A stretch of DNA of 64,000 nucleotides from the NCBI RefSeq assembly GCF_014652675.1, contig NZ_BMZG01000001.1, positions 1 to 64,000 of the forward strand, in the 5' to 3' direction. A program made the translations under genes and the position numbers. The notes beneath the pieces are model-generated. The model was given only the letters and a program-made list of their open reading frames with translations, was not told the DNA's origin and ran no database searches. This DNA is from Formosimonas limnophila (GTDB taxonomy: Bacteria; Pseudomonadota; Gammaproteobacteria; Burkholderiales; Burkholderiaceae). Positions 18,323 through 28,427 of the stretch are shown here, piece after piece. The first letter of the stretch is position 1. Each line of letters starts with the position of its first letter.

Positions 18323-18333
18323 CGAATCAGGGA
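18323..18333. repeat. Satellite attachment-site repeat (outer end)
   Basis: CGAATCAGGGA is an exact copy of bases 28357-28367 in the T-arm/acceptor part of tRNA-Met (13 bases with one mismatch if extended left by GA/GG). Both copies sit beside a duplicated integrase leader containing GCTAACGTC and GGTGACGT. This makes it the likely junction between the decayed outer element and the intact inner element. The core is short, so exact crossover limits are uncertain. Confidence 0.65.
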
Positions 18334-18391
18334 CAAGTAAAAACACATGAAAGCCAATAAAATAAACAAATAAGAAAAACGATTTCTTTTT

Positions 18392-18414
18392 CGGATACAC
18401 AAACGGATACACAA
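18392..18414. repeat. Tandem integrase arm-type repeats, outer end
   Basis: Two adjacent copies of CGGATACACAAA lie just inside the attachment repeat. The same 11-12-base word recurs at 18208-18219 and near the integrase (28118-28130 and 28178-28188 inverted; 28215-28226 and 28227-28238 direct). The distribution at both element ends is what arm-type binding sites of a tyrosine integrase look like. Confidence 0.65.
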
Positions 18415-18462
18415 AATAAAAAACGCTTCTGAAAATCCTATGGGTGTCGCCTCGATTTTCAG
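18415..18462 (-). terminator. Candidate terminator at the end of the satellite operon
   Basis: Nine-base arms CTGAAAATC and GATTTTCAG (18429-18437 and 18454-18462) enclose a 16-base loop. On the minus strand they are followed by GCG and a T-rich run. It lies ~37 bases after the TerS-like stop, so it probably ends the long minus-strand transcript. The loop is large, so strength is uncertain. Confidence 0.45.
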
Positions 18463-18498
18463 TGTTAGATGAGACTGTCATTTAACAAAAACTCATGG

Positions 18499-18912
18499 CT
18501 ATTTGACTACGATAACCGTTGCCCCGCCAAAGCGAGGTTTGTTTTCAATTTTTTCAGGTTTATTGTACCCGTGTATTTTATTGAGTAGTTTGATGGTTTT
18601 GAGCCTTTGACTAATTTTGCGTTTTGATTTTGCCAGTTTGAGGGTTTCAAGCTCCTCAATTAAAGCAATGGTTAGCTCTCGGTTTAATTGCAAAATCTGC
18701 TCTTTTTCTTGCTGCCTGAATAATGCAATTTTTGCCATAATCTTACCGTTTTTAGTCAGCTCACTGGCTTTGACATAAGCGGTGTTTCTTGCCATGTTAT
18801 GCGCGTCATACGCGTCAAGGTAGGCATCTACCTGCGACATACCTTGTGTGATGTTATCGTAAAATTTAAGCTGCTTTTGAGTGAGTGGCATATTTTGGTT
18901 ATCTAAACGCAT
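18499..18912 (-). CDS. Small terminase subunit-like protein (TerS)
   Basis: About 137 aa. The N-terminal part (MPLTQKQLKFYDNITQGMSQ...YDAHNMARNTAYVKASEL) fits the Terminase_2 pattern: LTxKQxxF, a helix-turn-helix, then a string of helices ending in Lys-rich sequence. Small terminases recognise phage DNA for packaging. No large terminase or capsid gene is present, so any packaging must use a helper phage. The start at 18912 overlaps the end of the CxxC gene; TTG 18921 or ATG 18891 are alternatives. It is the last gene of the element, the usual place of terS in PICI satellites. Confidence 0.65.
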   Translation of the reverse strand: MRLDNQNMPLTQKQLKFYDNITQGMSQVDAYLDAYDAHNMARNTAYVKASELTKNGKIMAKIALFRQQEKEQILQLNRELTIALIEELETLKLAKSKRKISQRLKTIKLLNKIHGYNKPEKIENKPRFGGATVIVVK

Positions 18913-19132
18913 CCGCTTCAATGTAACGCCCGACGGGGTTCATGCACACGGCGCACTGCCCATTCAGTATCAAGCTGCCTTTTTCTGCCTTGCCTGACGC
19001 ATTAAACATGGTTGTGACATTTTTGCAATGGCTGCAATACACATTTTCTAAAATGTTTCTTTTATCGTCAATGGATAGCAAGCTCCATAACTGGGCTGCT
19101 TGTGGTGCGAATTTAGGGAGTTTGAGGGTCAT
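18899..19132 (-). CDS. CxxC zinc-binding-like mini-protein (copy 2)
   Basis: A 77-aa protein with Cys pairs CSHC and CAVC (residues ~33-36 and 60-63), likely coordinating one metal ion. It is 75/77 identical to the copy at 16757. It starts in an ATGA overlap with the putAbiC stop and its own end overlaps the TerS start, so the three are translated as a coupled set. I do not recognise a characterised family. The strong conservation between copies, compared with their neighbours, argues that it is or was under selection. Confidence 0.75.
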   Translation of the reverse strand: MTLKLPKFAPQAAQLWSLLSIDDKRNILENVYCSHCKNVTTMFNASGKAEKGSLILNGQCAVCMNPVGRYIEADAFR

Positions 19133-26822: not shown

Positions 26823-26824
26823 CT

Positions 26825-28117
26825 TTATTGTGAACGTGCCATTTTAAGAATCTGACCGCTATGCCTTAATTCATCCAATCTGTCTGCCCATGCTTGCATC
26901 ATCTTTTTACGTTGAGGCACGTATTTGGCGTGATTGTATGCAGCGGCTACTTTGTTGCGCTCCATATGGGCAAGCTGTAATTCAATGTGCTCGTGTGGAT
27001 AACCCATTTCGTGTAATTCTGTCGATGCCACCCCTCTAAATCCGTGAACCGTCATGCGGTCTTTATATCCCAATATGTGCAAGGCTTTATTCAGTGTGCC
27101 ATCACTCATCACTTTATTCTCACCCTTGGTGCTTGGGAATAAGTGCTTTCGGTGGCCATTGATACGGTGCAATTGCTCGATAACTTCTAACGCTTGGCGT
27201 GATAATGGCACGATATGTGGGGTGGGCATTTTCATGCGCTCAGCTGGGATTGTCCACAATCCCGCTTCAAGGTCAAACTCGCGCCACTCTGCGCCGCGTA
27301 GCTCACCATGGCGCACAAAGGTTAAAGCCATCAACTGCAAGCCTAAACGCGCCAGTACGCCATCGTATGAATCTATAGCTCGCAGTAGGTTGGGCATTTC
27401 CTTAATACCTACACGCAACTGGTTCACTACTTGATGTTTGCCTGCCAATAAGTCCCCGCGCCGTATATTGGCTAAAGGATTGCTTTCCATTATACCCAGT
27501 GCGCAAGCGTGCCTAAATATTTGCCCACATGCTACCCATGCCTTATCTGCCAGCACAGGGGCGCGCTCCTCAATGGCTTTGAGCACAGGGGCGATTTCAC
27601 GCAAGGTGAGGGCGTTGATTGAACGCTTGCCCAATTTGGGCAGCACATCGGCTTCAAGCCTGCGCCATGTGGCTGTGGCGTGTTTCTCGCTGATGCCTTT
27701 GCCAATGCGCCAGTTTTCCCACCATAGCTTTGCCACTTGCTCAAATGTGTTTTGCGCTTCCTTTTTGGCCTGCGCTTTCGATTCTTGGCGTGCCTGTGCG
27801 GGGTCTATGCCTTGTTTGACTTGTGCGTAGGCTTCCGAGTGCTTTTGACGGGCTTGGGCAAGGGTAACGGCTGGATACTCACCCAACGATAAACGGCTTG
27901 CCTTGCCGTGAATACGGTAACGATAAAACCAAAACCACGCGCCCCATTCGCGACGTATGAGGGTTAAGCCTTTGCCGTCTGATAATGATGTGGGTATGCT
28001 CACTTGTCCCGCTGCATCCATGAATAGAGACAATACTGTGTCGTCGCCCAATAAAGCACGTTCTATGTTATTGATGTCTTTGGGTAGTTTTGCGGGATTG
28101 AGTTTTTCGGCAGCCAT
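26825..28117 (-). CDS. int: Tyrosine recombinase, P4-type integrase
   Basis: A 430-aa integrase. The N-terminal arm-binding (DUF4102-like) domain includes SDGKGLTLIRREWGAWFWFYRY and SLGEYPAVTLAQAR. The SAM-like core-binding domain follows, then the catalytic domain with FVRHGELRGAEW (Arg), TVHGFRGVAST (HxxR) and HMERNKVAAAYNHAKY (His/Tyr region). It integrates DNA at tRNA 3' ends. It is transcribed away from the tRNA-Met gene 234 bases upstream, whose 3' end is the attachment site. The leader contains several GGATACACA repeats likely bound by the integrase itself. Confidence 0.93.
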   Translation of the reverse strand: MAAEKLNPAKLPKDINNIERALLGDDTVLSLFMDAAGQVSIPTSLSDGKGLTLIRREWGAWFWFYRYRIHGKASRLSLGEYPAVTLAQARQKHSEAYAQVKQGIDPAQARQESKAQAKKEAQNTFEQVAKLWWENWRIGKGISEKHATATWRRLEADVLPKLGKRSINALTLREIAPVLKAIEERAPVLADKAWVACGQIFRHACALGIMESNPLANIRRGDLLAGKHQVVNQLRVGIKEMPNLLRAIDSYDGVLARLGLQLMALTFVRHGELRGAEWREFDLEAGLWTIPAERMKMPTPHIVPLSRQALEVIEQLHRINGHRKHLFPSTKGENKVMSDGTLNKALHILGYKDRMTVHGFRGVASTELHEMGYPHEHIELQLAHMERNKVAAAYNHAKYVPQRKKMMQAWADRLDELRHSGQILKMARSQ

Positions 28118-28238
28118 TTGTGTATCCGTTCACTTATTGATGGTTTTTCAATAAAATCAAACGGATAGGGTGGTTTAGTGTATCCGTTGGTTCGATTAAT
28201 GTGTTGTCATCATAACGGATACACATACGGATACACAA
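28118..28238. repeat. Integrase arm-type repeats, tRNA-proximal end
   Basis: Four copies of a TGTGTATCCG/CGGATACACA word lie between the integrase start and tRNA-Met: inverted at 28118-28130 and 28178-28188, direct at 28215-28226 and 28227-28238. The same word occurs at the other end of the element (18208-18219, 18392-18414). They could also act in autoregulation of int, because they flank its likely promoter. Confidence 0.65.
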
Positions 28239-28281
28239 GTTATTTTTCGCCTATGGTTGCCAAGGGTTGGCTATGAATAGC

Positions 28282-28306
28282 AAAAAGCCCGCAATTACGC
28301 GGGCTT
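28282..28306 (-). terminator. Terminator downstream of tRNA-Met
   Basis: On the minus strand GCCCGC and GCGGGC arms separated by a short loop are followed by five T. It lies ~45 bases after the tRNA 3' end and would stop tRNA transcription before the integrase. A near copy exists at 18263-18287. Confidence 0.7.
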
Positions 28307-28350
28307 CAGGCTTGTTTCTTGCTAACGTCGGGTGACGTTTGGCTATATAT

Positions 28351-28427
28351 TGGTGGCGAATCAGGGATTCGAACCCCGGACCTGCGGATTATGATTCCGT
28401 CGCTCTAACCGACTGAGCTAATTCGCC
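28351..28427 (-). tRNA. tRNA-Met (CAU), satellite integration site
   Basis: A 77-base cloverleaf on the minus strand: acceptor GGCGAAT pairing with ATTCGCC, D-arm AGCTCAGTCGGTTAGAGC, anticodon loop ATCATAA with CAT at 28391-28393, T-arm GGGGTTCGAATCCC, and encoded CCA. The sequence resembles elongator tRNA-Met of betaproteobacteria. The 3' part (28357-28367) is repeated at 18323-18333, so integration restored the tRNA gene. Confidence 0.95.
28357..28367. repeat. Attachment-site repeat inside tRNA-Met
   Basis: CGAATCAGGGA in the T-arm/acceptor region of tRNA-Met is the partner of the copy at 18323-18333. Together they bound the ~10-kb intact satellite. Confidence 0.65.

Follow-up and report, generated by a model that had tools for sequence, protein, structure and literature searches.

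A probable TerS-carrying, PICI-like phage satellite with an HUH initiator and two defence-type genes at a tRNA-Met gene of Formosimonas limnophila

The stretch analysed here, referred to as the window, comprises the first 64 kb of contig NZ_BMZG01000001.1 of Formosimonas limnophila, and all positions are numbered on it. It contains an integrated element, E1 (18323-28367), which adjoins a second, deleted copy, E2. E1 is probably a phage satellite resembling the phage-inducible chromosomal islands (PICIs): it appears to integrate at the 3' end of a tRNA-Met gene, to use rolling-circle replication and to carry a gene for a terminase small subunit (TerS). The original prediction had described an intact PICI-like satellite at tRNA-Met with two defence modules. 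Integration at the tRNA, the absence of capsid genes, the alpA and terS genes and the two defence-type genes all stood. Membership of the PICIs in the strict sense did not, as E1 has an initiator of the HUH type instead of a primase/rep module.

Boundaries and gene content of E1

The size of E1, measured from start to start of two 11-bp attachment (att) cores, is 10,034 bp. The core, CGAATCAGGGA, was predicted as a direct repeat at both ends with one copy inside tRNA-Met, and its exact sequence indeed occurs at just these two places in the window (Table 1). When one mismatch was allowed, four sites were found against 0.77 expected, and none of 100 shuffles gave as many. Between the cores, both arms contain a second motif, CGGATACACA, as direct pairs. 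With up to one mismatch, this motif has 11 sites in the window against 2.98 expected (0 of 100 shuffles reached 11); the E1 and E2 arms account for eight of the 11, and the other three lie outside them. The repeats at both ends may be arm-type sites for the integrase. The identity of the latter was borne out by PF00589 (5.5e-21) and by an arm-binding domain, Arm-DNA-bind_3.

Table 1. Features of E1, its integration site and the adjoining copy E2 (aa, amino acids; ORF, open reading frame; R-M, restriction-modification; wHTH, winged helix-turn-helix)
Feature	Position	Strand	Basis or remark
tRNA-Met (anticodon cat), integration site	28351..28427	-	tRNA scan
Att core CGAATCAGGGA, in 3' part of tRNA-Met	28357..28367		exact copy
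Left arm: CGGATACACA direct at 28216 and 28228 (12 bp apart), inverted at 28119 and 28177 (28177 with one mismatch)	28119..28237		
Tyrosine integrase, 430 aa	26825..28117	-	Pfam, PHROGs
Orphan ORF contiguous with int, 245 aa	26085..26822	-	without family
Hairpin, 18-nt arms, A/T flanked, between orphan and alpA	26030..26066		folding and shuffles
AlpA-like wHTH protein, 67 aa	25754..25957	-	homologues near related integrases
HUH rolling-circle Rep, 218 aa	25101..25757	-	HFH at residue 137, Y..K at 184
Type ISP single-chain R-M enzyme, 1674 aa	20040..25064	-	Pfam, PADLOC, motifs
putAbiC protein, N-terminal membrane part	19129..20043	-	listed start TTG; ATG 6 nt further in, by eye
CxxC small protein	18899..19132	-	weak DUF5679
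TerS-like protein	18499..18921	-	PHROGs; listed start TTG
Right arm: CGGATACACA at 18392 and 18404, 12 bp apart	18392..18413		
Right att core CGAATCAGGGA, E1/E2 junction	18323..18333		exact copy
E2, deleted tandem copy homologous to both E1 ends	16601..18322	-	blastn
E2: int start	17997..18164	-	about 40 codons homologous
E2: ISP gene end	17944..17983	-	95% to E1 20035-20075
E2: putAbiC allele	16987..17952	-	57% over C-terminal 109 residues
E2: CxxC copy	16757..16990	-	protein 97% identical
E2: broken terS	16592..16779	-	two pieces in different frames

The ORF list and the profile searches agreed with the predicted order of eight same-strand genes, all of which are intact and tightly packed. 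From alpA onwards they form a compact train (alpA-rep-ISP-putAbiC-CxxC-terS) with both defence genes directly after rep: alpA and rep overlap by 4 bp, as do putAbiC and CxxC, the CxxC and terS genes overlap by their listed starts, the ISP and putAbiC genes touch, and the gap between rep and the ISP gene is 36 bp. The hairpin upstream of alpA (-22.7 kcal/mol, z -5.6, with none of 200 shuffles as strong) can be read as a terminator that splits int and the orphan from this train, or as an origin hairpin for Rep. Among the eight genes no credible match to a capsid or other structural gene, to the terminase large subunit (TerL) or to a lysis gene was found in Pfam or PHROGs, the sole structural-type match being a weak portal match of the integrase (phrog_2662, E 0.011). 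The gene at the far end, in turn, matches three separate PHROG families annotated as terminase small subunit (phrog_51 at 7e-11, phrog_1595 at 1.3e-8 and phrog_641 at 1.2e-5). Capsid or TerL genes within the unit, and end genes unrelated to terS or alpA, had been named beforehand as findings that would speak against a satellite; both were looked for and neither occurred. A promoter scan gave 23 predictions against 21.2 expected and carries no information, and Rfam at its gathering threshold showed nothing beyond the tRNA over 15000-30000.

The prediction of an HUH-type Rep is upheld by PF23343 (2.2e-8, over the cut-off) together with the HFH and Y..K motifs, and the protein also matches phrog_3419, 'rolling circle DNA replication initiation', at 1.6e-4. 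No relative was found in a pattern scan of genome contigs, in a pattern scan of viral contigs or in phage records by tblastn. A single-sequence search of 399 genomes of the order returned the source genome, G337 and one weak match in G192 (G000 denotes the source genome, G001-G337 its relatives, C a contig and L a fetched locus); the neighbourhood in G337 was rejected as a satellite, since by eye its surroundings are not satellite-like. That E1 is a filamentous-phage-type satellite or a rolling-circle plasmid that became integrated, centred on the Rep and passed on as single-stranded DNA, is very unlikely. The small Rep does belong to the ORF2/G2P family, and its sole plasmid match is the Vitreoscilla plasmid p2Vster (30%), which is not satellite-like by annotation; against this stand the TerS-like gene and the lack of any filamentous-phage structural gene among the eight. 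Moreover, filamentous-phage satellites integrate at dif by means of the host Xer system and have no integrase of their own, whereas E1 has its own tyrosine integrase at a tRNA, so it was rejected as such a satellite by this criterion.

At E <= 0.1 the 67-aa protein matched nothing in Pfam, PHROGs, PADLOC or NCBIfam; what speaks for an AlpA-like protein is a set of homologues located downstream of related integrases. A scan of genome contigs confirmed 111 relatives of the integrase, the best 80 of which were kept as 79 loci. Using phmmer at E <= 0.05, AlpA-like ORFs were found in 18 of these 79 loci, and relatives of Rep, TerS, the CxxC protein or the orphan in none. At E < 0.005 there were 17 matches; 16 lie on the same strand 0.3-2.1 kb downstream of the integrase, and the remaining one (L057) lies elsewhere on the opposite strand. 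Ten of the relatives are 30-35% identical to the E1 protein in an alignment, and both of the two that were scanned reach the cut-off of 21 for PF05930 Phage_AlpA (40.4 and 21.3 bits). It is through these homologues, and not through a direct family match, that the claim of an AlpA gene holds. The orphan gave nothing convincing in the same four databases (best DotY, 0.0041, under the cut-off), and its single-sequence AlphaFold2 (AF2) model, with a predicted local distance difference test score (pLDDT) of 49.8, is too poor to interpret.

The largest gene encodes, as predicted, a type ISP enzyme. The PADLOC match of 2434 bits spans residues 1-1674, Pfam recognises Mrr_cat_2, ResIII, ISP_coupler and Type_ISP_C, and the nuclease, Walker A, DEAH, DPFTGTG and NPPY motifs are in place. 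By these signatures the protein is a complete enzyme whose single chain unites nuclease, helicase, coupler, methyltransferase and recognition domains. The same arrangement of Mrr nuclease, superfamily 2 (SF2) helicase, coupler, methyltransferase and recognition domain is described for the single-chain R-M enzymes LlaGI and LlaBIII (PMC4666363); the E1 enzyme differs in residing on an integrated satellite-like element. The putAbiC gene was likewise recovered, with PF16872 at 30.1 bits against a cut-off of 22, and the family name suggests a putative abortive-infection protein. The CxxC protein lies where it had been placed, with a weak match to DUF5679 (24.1 bits, below the cut-off of 27); neither it nor the orphan has anything over a curated cut-off in Pfam or NCBIfam. 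Two loci in related genomes touch on these small genes. In G005 (L020 11511-12765), a relative of the N-terminal part of putAbiC (35% over 141 columns) is followed by a CxxC gene; neither int nor terS was seen in the vicinity, and such a pair may travel together. In G001:C140 (L022 2368-3011), a diverged CxxC gene (41%) immediately follows the end of a gene for a type IV coupling protein and has tRNA-Asn as a neighbour; the family may also occur in conjugative elements.

Decayed copies and related islands

E2 is recognisable as a former element of the same kind, which makes E1 one half of a tandem and not a lone insertion. Besides the ISP gene end (Table 1), four stretches were aligned by blastn: 16601-17298 with E1 18742-19437 (81%), 17606-17668 with 19616-19678 (92%), 18045-18181 with 27998-28130 (82%) and 18168-18321 with 28175-28341 (80%). 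By the measure of E1, about 7.9 kb (20076-27997) has been lost internally, and the far end is gone beside a gene for a FAD protein. E1 and E2 meet where the right att core of the former adjoins the left arm of the latter, as would result if one element had inserted where another already sat, so the site appears to have been invaded at least twice. A third remnant lies on contig C2 of the source genome, with CxxC at 89% and pieces of terS at 84% and 78% DNA identity. In this remnant (L012 18546-19317; G000:C2:78545-79316) the terS pieces overlap a 113-aa membrane-type ORF; no tRNA was found near it in the fetched stretches. These copies bear on the idea that E1 is a decayed prophage, which lost its structural genes and kept int, a regulator, a replication gene, terS and defence morons. 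The phage origin of terS and int and the decayed copies around E1 would suit this idea, but it is improbable: none of the eight ORFs is broken and they are closely spaced, and the int end, ISP tail, putAbiC, CxxC and terS were formerly present in E2 as well, so that the compact set constitutes a repeated unit and not a random residue.

Islands that combine a wHTH gene with an HUH Rep also occur elsewhere in the order. PF23343 was matched at E <= 0.001 in 62 of 399 genomes (51 over the cut-off). The Rep loci of 30 positive genomes were kept, and a hidden Markov model (HMM) of the AlpA set was run on them. Weak matches next to Rep were obtained in four of the 30, all from genus g40 (E 0.0036-0.011), and one more (0.022) fell in the prophage region L136. 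In the four g40 islands (L168-L171), an integrase and toxin-antitoxin-like genes are accompanied by an ORF of roughly 220 aa, the wHTH gene, a gene for an HUH Rep (562-587 aa) and cargo. By eye, the integrase of L170 is a fragment only; the Rep of L168 is of the P2-gpA type (PF05840, 1.9e-86), and L171 has a further clear AlpA-like ORF (3e-13) beyond the integrase on the other strand. L168 carries a DNA methylase as cargo, L170 an AAA_13 protein and L171 a 663-aa protein with a pre-toxin domain match, while no family was matched by the 457-aa protein of L169 or the 974-aa protein of L171. Genes for tRNA-Thr are present in L168, L169 and L170 (in L170 beside another integrase) and absent from L171. 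As in E1, an integrase, an ORF and a wHTH gene adjoining an HUH Rep are followed by variable, partly defence-like cargo. The g40 islands differ in their larger Rep, in their toxin-antitoxin-like genes, in integrases that are about 22% identical to that of E1 (L168 and L169; the one in L171 aligns over 84 residues only) and in having no TerS in the 10 ORFs scanned. Together with E1, they give the impression of a design that recurs and not of a single lineage.

The tRNA-Met site itself is used in related genomes. In G004, an integrase 62% identical to that of E1 lies at the corresponding tRNA-Met, and by eye the tRNA-proximal region is laid out alike, except that the motif there is TTACCCACA, present twice at a spacing of 12 bp. 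Comparable traces were seen by eye in G002 and G001 and not in G005. The G004 locus (L130 5849-10421) also encodes a Fic protein and, by eye, a transposase-like ORF and a toxin-antitoxin-like pair. The stretch that follows the tRNA directly, which includes a terminator-like hairpin, is similar across those related genomes and the left arm of E2, and it may equally have come with the element or from the host. Outside these loci, a local dip in G+C (0.37-0.40) was seen at 61001-63000 of the window, over small ORFs that look secreted by eye.

The TerS-like protein and the case for a satellite

Several observations weigh against E1 being a satellite, some of which concern the protein that would direct packaging. 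The original claim of a TerS-like protein has the three PHROG families in its favour, but no terminase family was matched in Pfam or NCBIfam, the other matches being weak and unrelated (PRAI 0.039; PADLOC PtuB 0.0071). A single-sequence AF2 model shows one long helix and is too poor to interpret (pLDDT 74.6; predicted template modelling score, pTM, 0.29). No relative was found in 397 other genomes of the family, in phage records by tblastn or in a pattern scan of viral contigs that detects close relatives only, so that no helper could be assigned with confidence. A candidate, by its presence in the source genome, is a tailed prophage on C11 (L136, G000:C11:22000-41900) with TerL (phrog_2, 3.5e-27), baseplate, tail fibres, a DnaB-type helicase and a resolvase-like ORF. 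Nine of its ORFs were scanned and gave no capsid gene, and the TerS of E1 shows no similarity to the ORF lying upstream of the TerL gene of this prophage (best E 0.79). By PF03354 no TerL was found in the source genome, and a weak phrog_2 match on C3 was set aside, as its surroundings look like ordinary chromosome. Further points on the same side are that the exact att core is just 11 bp long, that an HUH Rep stands where PICIs have a primase and replication initiator module, and that no clean empty site was found in G002, G004 or G005. In G002 the FAD gene is near tRNA-Met, but the tRNA is inverted relative to the source genome; in G004 and G005 a long distance separates the two, or they lie on separate contigs.

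These observations leave some room for an integrative defence island that is not a satellite, in which the integrase and AlpA move the DNA, Rep amplifies it, spread occurs by transformation or generalised transduction and the TerS-like protein is a DNA-binding regulator. The reliance of TerS on PHROG profiles, the g40 islands with no TerS in the 10 ORFs scanned and the lack of a helper tied to E1 would fit such an island. It is nevertheless rather unlikely, given that three separate PHROG families match, that terS stands at the end of E1, and that pieces of terS lie next to CxxC in both E2 and the C2 remnant.

Comparison with known satellites and proposed life cycle

P4-like satellites carry sid, psu, delta and alpha-primase genes, and capsid-forming PICIs (cfPICIs) their own capsid and packaging genes. 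No family of either set is among the matches of the eight genes, and E1 was rejected as a member of both groups. The proposed comparison of gene order with PICI and P4-like elements was upheld on the PICI side in every feature tested except the replication module, and on the P4 side the genes were not found.

PICIs are defined by int, a regulator and a pri/rep module, along with interference genes and, in some members but not in EcCICFT073, terS (PMC6092414). The Gram-negative PICIs EcCICFT073 and PmCI172 resemble E1 in having int, an alpA-type regulator, a replication gene and cargo without structural genes; PICIs also share its size range (about 10-15 kb), the presence of terS in some and defence genes adjoining the replication gene. 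E1 has a specific att site with its own integrase, an alpA-type regulator (by relationship and not by direct family match; alpA/merR-type in Gram-negative PICIs), no structural or lytic genes and, by PHROG profiles, terS. Since an HUH initiator replaces the pri-rep module, E1 is not a PICI in the strict sense. PICIs can carry an immune region mid-element, with defence genes downstream of pri, so the position of the E1 defence genes relative to rep has a published precedent (PMC11364771); in E1, however, the defence genes are packed between rep and terS in one train, and terS is last. The phage-inducible chromosomal minimalist islands (PICMIs) of Vibrionaceae have int, a gene contiguous or overlapping with it, alpA and a primase, and their replication is described as rolling circle with concatemers (PMC10803314). 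E1 shares their order of the first genes up to a replication gene, but PICMIs have a primase, a fis site and fewer genes, and no terS; E1 has neither the primase nor the fis site. No description of a TerS satellite with an HUH enzyme was found in the part of the satellite and rolling-circle literature covered, where a paper on satellites and HUH endonucleases concerned another kind of element, and a partly covered search directed at Burkholderiales and Neisseria gave nothing to the point.

If E1 is a satellite, the integrase, acting at the CGGATACACA arm sites with AlpA as directionality factor or activator, would excise the element as a circle of 10,034 bp. The HUH Rep, to judge from its family, would nick an origin and copy the circle by rolling-circle replication into multimers, onto which the E1 TerS would steer the TerL and capsids of a helper. 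The ISP enzyme and the putAbiC membrane protein may meanwhile protect the host from other phages, and many satellites encode defences that spare their own helper (PMC11389934). E1 would then parasitise a helper and block its competitors at the same time.

It is conceivable, though doubtful, that islands with AlpA (wHTH) and an HUH Rep make up a lineage of satellites, or a design reached convergently, that starts replication by the rolling-circle route where PICIs rely on a primase replicon; in E1, TerS would then guide the packaging of the multimers. Since the two defence genes lie in the alpA-terS train, their dose would rise when a helper induces E1. Satellites carry many phage defences; here, if this is true, E1 would equip the cell against competitors just as it departs. 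The tandem of an intact and a decayed element is a natural record of repeated invasion and of cargo turnover: the putAbiC alleles have diverged, and the adjoining CxxC protein has hardly changed. A TerS-bearing, HUH-replicating satellite would widen the range of satellite forms, and search models that require a primase could miss such elements.

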